From NCBI GenBank assembly GCA_021795355.1, contig JAJYPL010000010.1:1-42377 (forward strand): 42,377 nt of DNA, in the 5' to 3' direction. The notes under the pieces are model-generated. The model had not been told where the DNA came from. It worked only from the letters and a program-made list of their open reading frames with translations, and ran no database searches. Shown here in pieces: positions 11,867 to 30,301 of this stretch. The stretch comes from a bacterium. GTDB taxonomy: Bacteria; SZUA-79; Acidulodesulfobacterales; Acidulodesulfobacteraceae. Made by a program: the position numbers and the translations under genes. The first letter of the stretch is position 1; every line of letters starts with the position of its first letter.

Positions 11867-11974
11867 ATATTTATAAATTATAATATCCTGTCATTGCGGG
11901 CATATCTTTTATTGCATAACATAAAAGCCGTTGGCTTTTATAAACGCTGTCAAAGATATGTCCGCAATGATGCC
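11867..11974. repeat. Interspersed imperfect-hairpin repeat, copy 1
   Basis: An outer inverted repeat (11891-11909 with 11952-11970, one mismatch in 19; half-site TCATTGCGGGCATATCTTT) encloses a perfect inner hairpin ATAAAAGCC-GTT-GGCTTTTAT (11921-11941). The leader ATATTTATAAATTATAATAT precedes it. The same leader and both stems recur in degenerate form at 14208-14322. The copy lies in the 301-bp gap between the divergent CDF and MFS genes; I see nothing else in that gap beyond AT-rich promoter-type DNA. Confidence 0.6.
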
Positions 11975-14207: not shown

Positions 14208-14322
14208 GAGATATTTATAAATTCTAATATTGTGTTATGTATTGTCAGTCATTGGAGCATATCTTTGACTGCGTTTATAAAAGCCAACGCTTTTATGCCG
14301 GTAAAGATAGTCGCAATTACTG
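14208..14322. repeat. Interspersed imperfect-hairpin repeat, copy 2
   Basis: A degenerate relative of the repeat at 11867-11974 in the same orientation. It shares the leader ATATTTATAAATT-TAATAT, the outer stem (14246-14266 with 14303-14322, several mismatches) and the inner stem ATAAAAGC-CAAC-GCTTTTAT (14277-14296). It fills the gap between the convergent proC and maf genes, ending 3 bp before the maf stop, where it could act as a bidirectional transcription end. No gene lies in the gap. Confidence 0.55.
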
Positions 14323-22594: not shown

Positions 22595-23143
22595 ATGATA
22601 CCTCCAAACCAGAAAAAAGTAGAAGATATTATTCAATTAGATTTAGGATATATTCCCGACGTTGGTATTGACGACTACAGGCTTACGATAAACGGAACGG
22701 TCAAAAACCCAACGGTTTTTACTTACGACGATATAATAAAAATGGGAAACGACAAAGTGATCGACGACTTTCACTGCGTTACAGGCTGGACTAAAGAATC
22801 GGCTGAATGGGAGGGCGTTTTATCCAAAAAATTAGCCGATGCAGTTAAACCACTTAAAGACGCAAAGTACGTTTTAATAGGCTCTTACGACGGCTATACG
22901 ACAAACGTAGATACCGATTTTCTCCTTAAAGACAATTCGATATTTGCCTTAAAATATGCAGGTAAAATTTTAACGCGTGAACACGGTTTCCCTCTTCGCC
23001 TCATCATTCCGGATAAGTATGCCTATAAAAGCGCAAAATGGGTAAAAGTAATTACGTTTTTAGACAAAGAAGAGCTCGGTTACTGGGAGCAAAGAGGCTA
23101 TTCCAACGGCGCGGACCCGTTTAAAGAAGAAAGATATGCTTGA
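22595..23143 (+). CDS. Sulfite-oxidase-family molybdopterin protein, cytosolic
   Basis: A 182-residue single-domain protein of the oxidoreductase molybdopterin-binding (sulfite oxidase/MsrP) fold. The molybdenum cysteine ligand is C61 in DDFHCVTGWTKESAEWEG. YDGYTTNVD and HGFPLRLIIPDKYAYKSAKWVK are conserved in MsrP/YedY relatives. There is no Tat or Sec signal peptide, unlike MsrP, so it is probably cytosolic, and the dimerisation domain of true sulfite oxidases is missing. Short archaeal and bacterial orphans of this type exist, with unknown substrate. It precedes the LRV gene by 71 bp. A moaA gene for cofactor synthesis lies at the end of the window. Confidence 0.85.
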   Translation: MIPPNQKKVEDIIQLDLGYIPDVGIDDYRLTINGTVKNPTVFTYDDIIKMGNDKVIDDFHCVTGWTKESAEWEGVLSKKLADAVKPLKDAKYVLIGSYDGYTTNVDTDFLLKDNSIFALKYAGKILTREHGFPLRLIIPDKYAYKSAKWVKVITFLDKEELGYWEQRGYSNGADPFKEERYA

Positions 23144-25094: not shown

Positions 25095-25330
25095 TAAGAC
25101 GTATATTCGGAAATATTTATTTATAATGACGGCTATTTGTTGAAAAATCGACTATTGCAAAAATTACAACAGTTTGCAAAATTTATTTTCCAAAATAGCC
25201 AAGCCTAAAAAGCCATTATTAAAATAATTATTTTCATTTTATTATCTATTAATATGATGTATAATAAGTTATAATATACATTGCGTAAATAAAATTATAA
25301 ATGATTAAATTCATAAAAGGAGGAGGCTTC

Positions 25331-25576
25331 ATGAGAAGAACGCAAATATATTTAGACGATGAAATATACGAAATTTTAAAAAAAGAAAGTTTAATTGCAG
25401 GTAAAAGCACATCTCAAATAATAAGAGAAAACCTCAAAAAAAACTTGTTGAATAAAAGGAATAAAATATCGGATGCCATAGACAACTCTAAGGGTGCGTG
25501 GAAGGACAGGCCGGATTTTAAAATTAACTATTTTGTTAGAAAATTAAGAAAGGGAAATAGAATTGATAATTTTTGA
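25331..25576 (+). CDS. vapB: VapB-type ribbon-helix-helix antitoxin
   Basis: An 81-residue CopG/RHH-type protein: RRTQIYLDDEIYEILKKES is the DNA-binding ribbon, then AGKSTSQIIRENLKKN forms the helices, and the C-terminal tail (DNSKGAWKDRPDF) should wrap the toxin. The ATG at 25331 is chosen over one 30 bases upstream because AAAGGAGG lies just before it. Its 3' end overlaps the toxin start by 14 bases, the usual antitoxin-first operon that autorepresses its own promoter. Confidence 0.88.
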   Translation: MRRTQIYLDDEIYEILKKESLIAGKSTSQIIRENLKKNLLNKRNKISDAIDNSKGAWKDRPDFKINYFVRKLRKGNRIDNF

Positions 25577-25946
25577 TACTGATATTATTATCTGGATATT
25601 AAGAGGCAAAGAAACAATAGTAGCCGACGCAAAACGCTTATCCGAAGAAACATCGGGTAAAATATATATTACACCCGTTCAGGTTGCCGAGGTTTATTCG
25701 GGAATGAAGGAGAAAGAGGAAAGAAAAACCCGTGAACTTATAGAAAGTTTTTATTTTTTAGATATAAATAAAAGAATAGGCGAATTAGCCGGTATATATT
25801 TAAATAAATATAGGAAGTCCCATCAAATAGAGCTTGCAGATGCAATTATAGGAGCTTCGGCAAAAAATTACAATTTTAAATTATTTACTTTAAACACAAA
25901 GCACTACCCTATGCTTAGCAAAAACAATTTAATATCCGAATATTAA
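25563..25946 (+). CDS. vapC: VapC-type PIN-domain ribonuclease toxin
   Basis: A 127-residue PIN-domain protein. Acidic metal-binding residues occur in IIFDTDIIIW (D5, D7), PVQVAEVYSGM (Glu) and HQIELADAIIGASA (Asp), with LFTLNTKHYPML near the end. These are the expected catalytic positions for a Mg-dependent RNase of the VapC group. The start is a TTG at 25563 inside vapB, preceded by AGGGAAA. It sits 26 bp upstream of hsdM, at the left side of the accessory block. Confidence 0.88.
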   Translation: MIIFDTDIIIWILRGKETIVADAKRLSEETSGKIYITPVQVAEVYSGMKEKEERKTRELIESFYFLDINKRIGELAGIYLNKYRKSHQIELADAIIGASAKNYNFKLFTLNTKHYPMLSKNNLISEY

Positions 25947-25972: not shown

Positions 25973-27526
25973 ATGGCGAAGATTAACGGCAATAATAGTT
26001 CAAATCAGGCGGGAGATATAGGTTTTACTTCCAAGCTCTGGCAGACGGCGGATAAGATGCGCAACAATATGGATGCCGCAGAATATAAACATGTAGTTTT
26101 AGGACTTATATTTCTTAAATATATTTCAGACTCGTTTATCGAGCGTTACAGCGAGTTATTAAATAATCCTGAAGCAGATCCCGAAGAATTGGATGAATAT
26201 AAATCCGAAAACATATTTTACGTTCCGCAAAAAGCCAGATGGGATTACCTGCAGAATAATGCCAAACAGCCGCATATAGGTAAGTTAATAGACGACGCAA
26301 TGACCGAAATAGAAAATATTAATCCAGTATTAAAAGGCGTTCTTCCTAAGAATTATGCAAGGGAAGGATTAGACAAACAGCGTCTCGGCGAACTTATAGA
26401 TTTAATAGGCACGATTGGTTTAGGCGAGAAAGAAAACATAAGCAGGGATATACCCGGTCGTGTTTACGAGTATTTTTTAGGGCAGTTTGCGGATGCGGAA
26501 GGTAAAAAAGGCGGGCAGTTTTATACTCCGAGATGCATAGTTAAACTTCTTACGCAGATGATAGAGCCGTATAAAGGCAGAGTATATGACCCTTGCTGCG
26601 GCTCCGGCGGAATGTTCGTCCAGTCAGAAAAATTCGTTCAGGAACACGGAGGAAGGATAGGCGATATTTCCATTTACGGGCAGGAGAGCAATCAGACTAC
26701 ATGGCGGCTTTGTAAAATGAACCTTGCTATCCGCAGGATAGAAGCCGATATCCAGTGGAATAACGAAGGAAGTTTTTTAAACGACGCACATAAAACCTTA
26801 AAAGCCGATTTTATTCTTGCCAATCCTCCTTTTAACGATTCAGACTGGAGAGGCGAACTTTTAAAGGACGACGTCCGCTGGAAATACGGCGTTCCTCCGG
26901 TTAATAATGCAAACTTTGCATGGATTCAGCATTTTATCTTTCATCTGTCCCCGACCGGTATAGCGGGCTTTGTCCTTTCCAACGGTTCGATGAGTTCCAA
27001 TACTTCTAACGAAGGAGAAATTAGAAAAAATATAATAGAGGCCGATTTAATTGACTGTATGGTCGCCCTTCCCTCCCAGCTGTTTTACAACACTATGATT
27101 CCGGCCTGCCTGTGGTTTATAGCCCGCGACAAAAAGAACCATAAATTCAGGGACAGAAGGGATGAAGTTTTGTTTATAGACGCCCGCGAAATGGGAGTTA
27201 TGCTCGACAGAAGACACAGAGAGCTTACAGATGAAGAAATTAATAAAATTGCAGATACTTACCATGCATTCAGGGGCGAAGGAGGCGAGTATCAAGATAT
27301 TGCCGGTTTCTGCAAAGCAGCGGCCATTGAAGAAATAAAAAAGCAGGGCTATATTTTAACGCCGGGCAGATATGTCGGCACTAAAGAAACGGAAGAAGAC
27401 GACGAAGTATTCGAAGAAAAGATAAAACGGCTGACGGCGGAATTATCGAAGCAGATGGAAGAAGAGAAAAGGCTGGACGAAGAAATAAAAATACAACTGG
27501 CTAAAATAGGGCTGAATTTGGAATAA
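25973..27526 (+). CDS. hsdM: Type I restriction-modification methyltransferase subunit
   Basis: N6-adenine DNA methyltransferase, the M subunit of a type I system. The N-terminal HsdM domain (about residues 15-150, [32 protein letters not shown]) precedes the AdoMet motif [10 protein letters not shown] (206-215) and the catalytic NPPF at 284-287. The C-terminal coil (about 470-517) would contact HsdS. The 517 residues are full length. There is no specificity subunit (hsdS) or nuclease (hsdR) next to it; a truncated RhuM gene follows after 6 bp. Without HsdS it would not be expected to methylate specifically, unless an hsdS elsewhere serves it. Confidence 0.93.
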
Positions 27527-27532
27527 GAATTT

Positions 27533-28255
27533 ATGAAAAATATTAAAAATGAAATAGCTATATATCAGTCGGAAAGCGGGGCAATCGAATTAAGGGGCGA
27601 TTGGCAAAATGAAACTATATGGGCAACGCAAGCTCAGATTGCAAATTTATTTAAATTAGATAGGACAGCAATAACTAAACATATAAAAAATATAATTAAA
27701 TTTGGTGAAATTGATGAAAAAAGCAATGTGCAAAAAATGCACATTGCAAATTCTGATAAGCCTGTCGCTTTTTATTCTTTAGATATAATTTTGGCTATTG
27801 GCTACAGAGTAAATTCCAAAACAGCCATTAAATTTCGCAGGTGGGCGTCCGAAGTTTTAAAACAGCATATTTTTAAAGGTTTTACAGTCAACAAAGAACG
27901 TATTGCGTCAAATTATAAACTATTCTTAAAAGCGTTAGACGATGTAAAAGCTCTTTTGCCGGAAAGCAGTAAGACAAATACGGTAAATATCTTAGAACTC
28001 GTATCTATTTTTGCAGATACATGGTTTTCTTTAAATGCCTATGATGCAGAAGAATTACCAAAGTCAGCCCAATTTTTGTTTTATCAGTTTATAAATTTTT
28101 TTCATTTTTTAAGATACAACAAATATACGCTTAAACAGGCCTTTCTTTACCGGTTTTATGACCGGCTTGTAAGATTCAAGGTCGGCTACTATATCTTCAG
28201 GCTCCCCCTTTTTATCTTTATTTCTTTTTTTCTTTCCAACCGTAAAACGTCTTAA
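27533..28255 (+). CDS. RhuM-family protein, C-terminally truncated
   Basis: The first about 180 residues match the RhuM (virulence-associated) family: EIAIYQSESGAIELRG, NETIWATQAQIANLF, TAITKHIKNI and SLDIILAIGYRVNSKTAIKFRRWASEVLKQHIFKGF. In many relatives this part is followed by a longer C-terminal region, in some a Fic/Doc domain. Here it stops at about 28070 (EELPKSA), and the last 60 residues are read through foreign DNA: bases 28114-28198 are an antisense copy of the 3' end of the gene at 29882-30301. So the ORF is open but the native C-terminus has been replaced. RhuM genes often sit inside type I RM loci, as here. Function is unknown and this copy is probably inactive. Confidence 0.7.
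   Translation: MKNIKNEIAIYQSESGAIELRGDWQNETIWATQAQIANLFKLDRTAITKHIKNIIKFGEIDEKSNVQKMHIANSDKPVAFYSLDIILAIGYRVNSKTAIKFRRWASEVLKQHIFKGFTVNKERIASNYKLFLKALDDVKALLPESSKTNTVNILELVSIFADTWFSLNAYDAEELPKSAQFLFYQFINFFHFLRYNKYTLKQAFLYRFYDRLVRFKVGYYIFRLPLFIFISFFLSNRKTS
28114..28198 (-). pseudogene. Duplicated 3' fragment of the unknown gene at 29882-30301
   Basis: This stretch aligns with 29884-29965 with five substitutions and one 3-base gap, so the reading frame is kept. On the minus strand it encodes EDIVADLESYKPVIKPVKKG followed by LFKRIFVVS and a stop, against EDIADLESYKPVIKPAKKG and LFKRIFVV in the intact gene. Upstream of it the frame continues for about 35 residues of unrelated lysine-rich sequence without a start codon. 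It is a remnant produced by duplication or by loss of a second paralogue. Confidence 0.7.
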
Positions 28256-28314
28256 ATCCTTTAAAAAGCTCAAATTATTTAAGCTCAAATTTATATTTTA
28301 AAAGCGGCTTTTAT

Positions 28315-29349
28315 TCATAAACCTGCATTTCTCGCTCTTTTAATCATTTTTTCTATTTCGGGATTTACGTTAATTGTATTTAATTCAATATCAGGATGAT
28401 TTTTTGTAAATACTCTGAATATCTCATCAGCAAAAGCTTGTCCTATATAATCCACGTTTCTAAAATCGAATATAACTATCTTAAAAAGCTCCACCCGCGC
28501 AAGGACTCTTTTGGCTTGGGAACGGGAAATCAGTTTATCGTTTCCGTATTGGGCTAATTTTACAGGAATTACCGTTTTGTTAAAACCATAATCGGTTTTG
28601 GACGTGAATTGGTCGAAAACACTTTTCGTAGTACGTGCCTTATGGTTATTTAACTCCATCCATACGGCAGTTCCTGTAGAAAATTTATCGTTTTCCAGAA
28701 TCCAATCTCTGTCGTCTCCAAACTTATGACTAAAAAAAACACCTCCTGAGAGAATATCAAATGAATCGAACATGCGGGACGTAAAAAAAATACCTTTTCC
28801 CGTGTGATTTTTAGGATCCGTAGTAAGCTTTCCCTTATGTAATTCAAAAATGGCATGTCGTTCATCGATAAGATTTAATTCCGTTTTAATTTTATTAAAA
28901 ATGCCTACCCCGTTATCAATCAGTAACATTTCCGTATTAACCGCATTTTTTTTTATTACTATTAAAATTTCGGAACCGCCGGAATGATCTATCGCATTGT
29001 TAAACATTTCCGTAAATCCATAGTGCCAAATATCTAAAACATTATCCGGCAACGAAGAAACGACAGGGCGGATAGAATTAGTCCACACCAAATCCTCGGC
29101 CAGATCCGCAGTTATTTTAAAACTTTCCCGCCATTCCGACAAAGCCGCAAGTTTATAAGTTCTGCCTTGAGTTTTTCCCGACTTTGCCAATACCTGCTCA
29201 AAGCACAGTTTTTGCAGATATTTATTAACTCCCTGTCTGGTAATTCCGAAATGTTCGGCAGTTATTTTAGTGATGTCATTCGGATGCTTTTCGACATGTT
29301 CAAGGATATAACGCCTGATATCCTCTCCTTTCCTGCTTACCTTGGTCAT
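28315..29349 (-). CDS. HTH - GHKL ATPase - DUF4325 (STAS-like) regulatory protein
   Basis: A 344-residue cytosolic protein with three parts. Residues about 10-66 form a winged helix (ITAEHFGITRQGVNKYLQKL). Residues about 105-235 are a GHKL/histidine-kinase-type ATP-binding domain, with the N box EMFNNAIDHS (114-123), DNGVGIF (145-151) and GKGIFF (184-189). Residues about 265-340 match the DUF4325 STAS-like domain (FKIVIFDFRNVDYIGQAFADEIFRVF). No phospho-acceptor histidine domain is visible, so anti-sigma-like or ATP-gated switching is more likely than classic phosphorelay. AGGGAG precedes the ATG. It is a lone gene on the minus strand within the accessory block; its target is unknown. Confidence 0.8.
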   Translation of the reverse strand: MTKVSRKGEDIRRYILEHVEKHPNDITKITAEHFGITRQGVNKYLQKLCFEQVLAKSGKTQGRTYKLAALSEWRESFKITADLAEDLVWTNSIRPVVSSLPDNVLDIWHYGFTEMFNNAIDHSGGSEILIVIKKNAVNTEMLLIDNGVGIFNKIKTELNLIDERHAIFELHKGKLTTDPKNHTGKGIFFTSRMFDSFDILSGGVFFSHKFGDDRDWILENDKFSTGTAVWMELNNHKARTTKSVFDQFTSKTDYGFNKTVIPVKLAQYGNDKLISRSQAKRVLARVELFKIVIFDFRNVDYIGQAFADEIFRVFTKNHPDIELNTINVNPEIEKMIKRARNAGL

Positions 29350-29386
29350 TGAAACTCCCTTTATTTATTTATCAACATTAATCTAT

Positions 29387-29623
29387 AATTTGCCGATAGA
29401 AACCGTTAAAATGGCTTTAAAGTTATATGAACACTGTGAATTCCCGCTTTCGCGATATTTCCGTCCGCGTTTATCAAAGCATGTCTTTGATGCAGACGGA
29501 AATGGACACCCGTTGGGAGCAAAGCTAAATTCCTTGATTGTCATTCCCGCGTAAGCGGGTAAGGTTTAAAGCCGTCAGTATTTAGAAGGCTCATCCAGAA
29601 TTAAAATTCTCTATCGGCAAATT
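29387..29623. mobile_element. 237-bp non-coding element with inverted ends and nested hairpins (MITE-like)
   Basis: The ends AATTTGCCGATAGA (29387-29400) and TCTATCGGCAAATT (29610-29623) are perfect 14-bp inverted copies, and weak similarity continues outward. Inside are a second pair GGCTTTAAA/TTTAAAGCC (29413-29421, 29565-29573), a long hairpin at 29457-29503 (ATTTCCGTCCGC with GCAGACGGAAAT, one mismatch) and a small GC hairpin CCCGC-GTAA-GCGGG at 29546-29559. The unit has no coding capacity. Nesting around a common centre suggests a palindromic non-autonomous element. No target duplication could be confirmed by eye. Confidence 0.6.
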
Positions 29624-29661
29624 TGAGTTAATCATTGAGATTGACAACTTATATATGTATT

Positions 29662-29703
29662 ATTGTCAACTAAAATAAATTAATTGTCAACTAAAATTAA
29701 ATT
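29662..29703. repeat. Two tandem 21-bp copies
   Basis: ATTGTCAACTAAAATAAATTA at 29662-29682 is followed at once by a second copy at 29683-29703 with a single base difference. TTGACAA at 29641-29647 faces TTGTCAA in the first copy as an inverted pair. This could be a regulator-binding array, or a slippage product; nothing else decides between them. Together with the inverted-end element and the hsdM fragment it occupies the 532-bp gap between the two flanking genes. Confidence 0.55.
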
Positions 29704-29740
29704 AAAGGTTTAATTAAAGTGGCAGATATATTTATTATTA

Positions 29741-29800
29741 GAGTTCCAACACTTCTAACGAAGGAGAAATGGGCGTTATGCTCAAGGGAAGACGCAGATA
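29741..29800 (+). pseudogene. hsdM fragment with internal deletion
   Basis: Bases 29741-29770 match hsdM 26992-27021 at 29 of 30 positions (SSNTSNEGE). The next bases jump in frame to the sequence that lies about 170 bp further on in hsdM (27188 onward, MGVML then RR), ending with a stop after [19 protein letters not shown]. The junction falls in GAAAT, present at both sites. It is the scar of a second, diverged hsdM copy. The 80 bases after it (to 29880) have an open frame but no recognisable family. Confidence 0.7.
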
Positions 29801-29881
29801 ATTTACCAAGGTTTTGTCTTCGATAAATATTTAGAATTGTTTGAAAAACCCGTTTGTTTGAACAAGCAGAATATTTCATAT

Positions 29882-30301
29882 TTATACAACAAATATACGC
29901 TTAAACAGTCCTTTCTTTGCAGGTTTTATTACGGGCTTGTAAGATTCAAGGTCGGCTATATCTTCGGATTTTTCCTTTGAGACGATAATCCATGGCGGGG
30001 GCGTAGTTAAAGAACAGCCGCCGCCGGACATTCTCGGATGGTAAATTTTTATTATAGAAGGCTCGTCTTTGGTGTGGACGTAAAACCATCCGCAAATCTT
30101 ATCCAGATTTTTTATTTCGTCCATCCTTTCCTTTAAAAATCCGGCTGCAGTTTCTGCGTCCATTTCGCCCCTTTCGTCGTCGGCTTGCGTATAGACGTAA
30201 TGCCATTGCGAGCCGGAATTTTTTACATCTTCGATTAGCTTTTCCACGTTCTCCCACTGCAAAAGACCCGAAAAAGCGACGGTATCGGCTTTATAAGGCA
30301 T
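29882..30301 (-). CDS. Conserved-looking hypothetical protein, unknown function
   Basis: I do not recognise this 139-residue protein. It is soluble, with no signal or membrane helix, and acidic in the first two thirds. Notable are the aromatic stretch SQWHYVYTQADDERGEMDAE, the GWFYVHTKDEPSIIKIYHPRMSGGGCSLTTPPPW segment (short form RMSGGGCSLTTPPPW) and a basic tail KPAKKGLFKRIFVV. AGGAGAG is well placed before the ATG, which supports a real gene. Its 3' end is duplicated at 28114-28198, so at least two related copies existed here. Confidence 0.6.
   Translation of the reverse strand: MPYKADTVAFSGLLQWENVEKLIEDVKNSGSQWHYVYTQADDERGEMDAETAAGFLKERMDEIKNLDKICGWFYVHTKDEPSIIKIYHPRMSGGGCSLTTPPPWIIVSKEKSEDIADLESYKPVIKPAKKGLFKRIFVV

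Follow-up and report, generated by a model that had tools for sequence, protein, structure and literature searches.

Gene content of the locus

The stretch of DNA that was analysed (the window, 42,377 nt) is contig 48 of a 1.31-Mb genome that is 66% complete and is distributed over 54 contigs. The order Candidatus Acidulodesulfobacterales was proposed from acid mine drainage (PMC6776010), and the named relatives of this genome are bins from metagenomes, with Candidatus Acididesulfobacter diazotrophicus (SGBB01000001.1) among them. Within the window, a 37-nt inverted repeat (11924-11960 and 14258-14294, 92% complementary, 2.3 kb apart) surrounds two long ORFs.

The resident hsdM gene (25973-27526, forward strand) encodes 517 aa with N6_Mtase and HsdM_N domains (Pfam; MTase_I in PADLOC), and its score against the NCBIfam model TIGR00497 (197.9 bits) lies below the cut-off of 242.75. 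A CopG/PIN toxin-antitoxin-like pair (25301-25946, forward strand) stands before it and in several relatives accompanies the restriction-modification (R-M) genes of this site. No hsdS or hsdR domains (Methylase_S PF01420, HSDR_N PF04313) were found in the 66%-complete genome itself, and from its gene content the resident hsdM looks solitary. A shortened rhuM-like gene (Virulence_RhuM; 27533-28062, forward strand) follows, for which PDC-S23 was the best PADLOC model, matched at positions 1-186 of 327. This gene contains a palindromic 29-mer (27723-27751, core GCAATGTGCAAAAAATGCACATTGC) that is identical at 29/29 positions in loci L058, L063 and L064, where the surrounding rhuM matches are scraps and far less alike than the 29-mer.

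Beyond rhuM, a scrap at 28066-28106 is 90% identical over 41 bp to the DNA beyond rhuM in genome G005 (L062 10276-10236). The truncated rhuM gene is also adjoined by a diverged copy of the 3' end of a gene termed here X (28113-28203, reverse strand), which corresponds to the last 90 bp of X from 29884 onward. Gene X itself (29882-30301, reverse strand) encodes 139 aa and had no match in Pfam, PADLOC or NCBIfam.

A DUF4325/HATPase-like gene (28315-29349, reverse strand; domain search) lies between the two X sequences, and its upstream region carries TTGTCAACTA repeats. It is part of a block (28328-29702, minus an insert) that is 90-93% identical to contig 8 of G021, a genome of another genus; in 15 other members of the genus the matches listed for this region (best 15 candidates per genome) fall only in the insert, and the block was probably acquired horizontally, judging by these matches. 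The insert is a 244-bp MITE-like repeat (29384-29627) with terminal inverted repeats TATAATTTGCCGATAGA and TCTATCGGCAAATTTGA and a TTAATC target duplication at its borders (29378-29383 and 29628-29633). It separates the DUF4325 gene from the conserved region upstream of that gene, the site is empty in G021, and pieces of the repeat are frequent across the genus.

The hsdM remnant, or scar, described below (29741-29807) lies between two short flanks. The left one (29703-29740) weakly resembles short dispersed A+T-rich stretches elsewhere in the family, and an origin of the flanking DNA from the MITE-like element was rejected because that element stops at 29627, before the scar. The right one (29807-29870) contains an open frame and had no convincing relative; a reading of 32 residues gave only weak matches in 41 genomes (best E 0.0135 outside its own genome). 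One right-flank match falls in an apparent repeat protein, as judged by eye.

The hsdM remnant at 29741-29807

Two pieces of the scar align collinearly with the resident hsdM and on the same strand (blastn within the window). Piece 1 (29741-29770) is identical to hsdM 26992-27021 at 29/30 positions (E 4e-8), as it also is to the hsdM of relative G012, and piece 2 (29766-29806) is identical to hsdM 27188-27228 at 33/41 positions (80.5%, E 8e-5), with the match to G012 running to 29807 (83% over 42 bp). The pieces overlap by exactly GAAAT (29766-29770); 171 bp of hsdM, or 57 codons, are therefore missing between them, the reading frame is kept, and 67 bp of hsdM sequence survive. The two matches scored 50.9 and 39.2 bits, compared with a maximum of 28.3 bits for 650 control segments (245 bp, both strands, in steps of 120 bp, with the hsdM/rhuM and scar regions excluded), and 300 first-order shuffles of 29640-29899 gave a maximum score of 35.5 compared with 55 for piece 1.

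The initial annotation of this DNA, made from the letters alone, had described the 29/30 match, an in-frame skip of about 170 bp at the shared GAAAT and a distance of about 2.2 kb from the first hsdM. The blastn results and the controls bear all three out, the scar beginning 2214 bp past the end of the resident gene. The span then given, 29741-29800, was right at its start and too short at its end, piece 2 continuing 6-7 bp beyond 29800.

GAAAT is present in the resident hsdM at 27017-27021 and at 27188-27192 and in a single copy in the scar, the configuration of a short-homology deletion junction. Joins with at least 5 bp of shared sequence make up 0.15% of the distinct 50-599 bp deletions of the resident hsdM, and at a spacing of 171 such sharing occurs at 2.0% of positions; a join of this kind is rare for a random deletion within the gene. 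No shared sequence was found at the other two joins, on the left at 29741 and on the right near 29807; the GAAAT deletion is one of at least three joins that shaped the scar. The statement that the scar records how the second copy was lost is not borne out: the GAAAT deletion accounts for 171 bp, and what else is missing of the gene was removed through two or more further joins. The order of these events is one that we infer, because no relative with the same junction was found.

When the region (29639-29885) was compared with 24 other genomes, none of the matches listed contained the GAAAT junction and those of the scar itself were to hsdM, none pointing to the unrelated gene that had originally been named as the alternative; on this evidence the scar is hsdM-derived. 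A longer hsdM at this position with the same flanks, such as an undeleted ancestor would have, was not found in the family genomes searched.

The scar agrees with the resident hsdM at 57/67 positions (29/30 + 28/37) and with the hsdM of G012, the closest found, at 59/67 (29/30 + 30/37), which fits the original description of a slightly different copy; the values were 28/30 + 28/37 for G014 and lower for G013 and G004. At two places, GGGC and TTACC, the scar has the states of G012, G014 and G013, and the resident hsdM has GGGA and TTACA. Because the resident gene has lost these two shared bases, the scar is unlikely to be a recent copy of it, and its bases suggest a separation that predates the present sequence of the resident hsdM. 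Eight bases of the scar occur in neither G012 nor G014. Seven of them lie in piece 2, in five codons, and 7/7 change the residue or create a stop, whereas the resident and G014 hsdM genes differ with dN 0.023 and dS 0.39 (dN/dS 0.06); the resident hsdM has been under constraint and the scar has not. Divergence from the resident is uneven, with 1/30 positions changed in piece 1 and 9/37 in the remainder of piece 2 (29771-29807).

Restriction-modification genes beside gene X in relatives

Relatives of gene X occur across the family. Its presence in viral contigs was considered and rejected, none of 12 stretches that fit a pattern being a relative of X. Sixteen X-bearing loci were available from 20 fetched loci chosen among matches to X or hsdM. 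In 10 of the 16, R-M or rhuM sequence occupies the 3' side of X, and no such sequence was seen in L066, L070, L073, L074, L075 and L077, some of which are short contigs. In all six loci with both genes hsdM points toward X, as do the resident hsdM and the scar. Five further X loci were mapped, as part of a later set of 13 in which protein matches were examined for 13/13 and DNA matches for 6/13. These yielded an hsdM scrap 6.4 kb from X and pointing away from it (L170, G016), a weak HsdS fragment as the only R-M trace (L173, G013) and three loci in which no R-M sequence was seen (L176, L177 and L178). Since the G016 scrap points away from X, the orientation is not a strict rule. Taken together, the comparisons identify the interval that ends at X, its conserved right border, as an R-M turnover site in the family, and the scar lies where relatives carry R-M genes.

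The contents of this site vary, a few of the R-M genes beside X being complete and many of them broken. G012 has a frameshifted hsdM, an hsdS (PF01420) and an hsdR (TIGR00348), and G014 has an intact hsdM, an HsdS-domain gene (PF01420) and a type ISP enzyme in two ORFs. G012 carries the locus in two versions (L166 and L167, contigs 44 and 80), and either the locus was duplicated or the bin combines two strains. A molybdopterin-oxidoreductase gene (PF00174), located at 22595 in the window, abuts X directly in L066 (G011) and L173 (G013). Where the two genes abut, the last bases of the oxidoreductase gene (AGATACGCTTAA or close) adjoin X (L066, L081), and in L058 and L064 the same bases or close ones are still beside X although R-M genes separate it from the oxidoreductase. 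In its position, AGATACGCTTAA beside X resembles one edge of a repeated rearrangement.

Both X tails in the window have ATACAACAAAT at the gene end, and none of the 23 aligned loci of relatives has it (after removal of 12 duplicate contig records and two truncated ones, with some genomes contributing two loci); the duplication of the X tail therefore seems to be this lineage's own.

In the family, 19 of 30 genomes, that of the window included, gave hsdM matches at the DNA level. At least eight internal hsdM remnants were counted in seven of the 30, a lower bound because the best 12 candidates were scored per genome: the scar itself, two in G016 and one each in G002, G005, G013, G019 and G045. 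The count excluded all matches cut by contig ends, five matches of 66-70 bp at hsdM positions 489-558 (76-79%) that were taken to be other methyltransferases, three short matches (G007, G013:C118 and G016:394281) and the near-full-length frameshifted hsdM genes of G004 and G012. For seven of these remnants, gene X or one of the genes that adjoin X in the window is no more than about 10 kb away; the contig of the G013 remnant, a second hsdM copy 2.2 kb from a near-full-length one, is too short to tell. Internal deletions were also seen in G002 (725 bp, one shared base, out of frame) and in G045 (1152 bp, GAA shared, in frame); the shared bases and the 725 bp were read from the alignment by eye, the computed length for G002 being 726 in an alignment whose right side was shifted by one base. 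Two of the three internal deletions are thus multiples of three, too few for preservation of the frame to mean anything. The G005 remnant starts at about hsdM position 27191, within 3 bp of the start of piece 2, and this was taken as coincidence because its left neighbour is unrelated DNA.

Origin of the remnant and comparison with known systems

The reading that we favour, with a probability of roughly three in four, is that the scar is the dead remnant of a second hsdM, which would have stood between the resident hsdM and gene X in the same direction and been trimmed by several illegitimate joins, with short homology or none. One of these would have removed the 171 bp between the two GAAAT words, probably by replication slippage. 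The term 'second RM copy', used in the initial annotation, is borne out for the hsdM sequence and goes beyond the data for the rest, because no remains of an hsdS or hsdR were detected with the second hsdM: in 28100-29890, tblastn with the HsdS and HsdR proteins of relatives found nothing at E 1e-3, a search that very short scraps would escape.

How the second hsdM came to lie here is less certain. At about even odds, a tandem duplication of the segment from hsdM into the 3' end of X would have brought it, and of this duplication the diverged X tail (28113-28203) and the scar would be all that can still be seen. The observed order (hsdM, X-tail copy, hsdM scrap, X) is the one expected from such a duplication followed by deletions, with its junction gone; 28204-29740, where that junction would be, is mostly unrelated DUF4325 DNA with the MITE-like insert. 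Both the X-tail copy and the scar keep bases that their resident counterparts have lost, and some of those in the X tail are common to G012 and G005. Recombination between strains may also have produced this, and exchange of that kind would account equally well for the mixed bases of the X tail.

Strain exchange, or transfer together with the DUF4325 block, could also have delivered the scrap ready-made, in which case a second hsdM would never have been present at precisely this position. The close identity of the adjacent block (about 90%) to DNA from another genus speaks for this, as do the confinement of the listed matches in the 15 other genus members to the MITE-like part (best 15 candidates per genome) and the short hsdM and rhuM scraps that are dispersed through this neighbourhood in relatives. 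However, the homology to G021 stops at 29702, short of the scar, no hsdM match was found within 14 kb around the G021 block, and the scar has the orientation and place of the real hsdM genes beside X in six loci, which together make a ready-made arrival unlikely. The window could instead be a chimeric assembly of two strains with the scar as its product, given that the named relatives are metagenome-assembled, that the genome is incomplete and fragmented (66%, 54 contigs) and that the G012 bin contains two versions of the locus; yet mis-joined reads would not usually yield a 67-bp scrap that combines private substitutions with a clean deletion inside it, and we regard a chimera as very improbable.

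Retention of the scrap for a function, for example as a short peptide or an RNA matching hsdM mRNA, is more improbable still. Such a role might predict the near identity of piece 1 (29/30) and the in-frame 171-bp deletion, but stops bound the hsdM frame on both sides (TAG at 29739-29741 and TAA at 29799-29801), leaving at most 19 codons between them in addition to the loss of the 57 codons. Every private change in piece 2 alters a residue or makes a stop, and the junction is absent among the matches listed from the 24 other genomes. A functional short ORF is disfavoured by the same stops, and because they flank the frame on both sides the scrap is almost certainly functionless. Coincidence can be dismissed, the two pieces being collinear, in the correct order and on the correct strand, and scoring above all 650 controls (at most 28.3 bits) and the 300 shuffles.

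The scar is ordinary gene debris, of the kind left behind as restriction systems come and go at this place in the chromosome. In different genomes the same few kilobases hold an intact, a broken or a nearly erased hsdM, and this series at one site makes the order of R-M decay, and the origin of a solitary hsdM, readable by comparison. A wider proposal, which we consider tentative, is that type I R-M systems at the X site have been repeatedly duplicated and then dismantled in place by short-homology deletions, leaving a solitary hsdM and dated scars.

Solitary R-M genes have been reported to arise only rarely by degradation (NAR 2014 gku734, PMC4176335). The resident hsdM resembles the genes of that survey in having no hsdS or hsdR domain beside it in its 66%-complete genome. 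It departs from the reported trend in that the R-M sets carried by relatives at the same site suggest a product of degradation; it probably arose by local decay of a complete set, a view drawn from one incomplete genome. If the wider proposal is true, the site would offer a natural case of solitary methyltransferases formed by local decay, which the pan-genome survey found to be rare.

The GAAAT deletion likewise resembles the slippage deletions described in PMC2884548 (Genome Biol 2010 R45) in the loss of sequence between short direct repeats with one copy left, and differs from them in being a single event in already dead sequence, with the mechanism read from the junction. The scar itself belongs to a known kind, the pseudogene remnants of sites where R-M systems turn over. 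With the type I hsdM pseudogenes and remnants of variable R-M loci it shares homology to the intact hsdM of its genus, deletions and stops, and a site at which relatives have hsdM and hsdS together with hsdR or a type ISP enzyme. It differs from them in being unusually short (67 bp in two pieces), in representing hsdM only and in lying 2.2 kb from an intact and apparently solitary hsdM.
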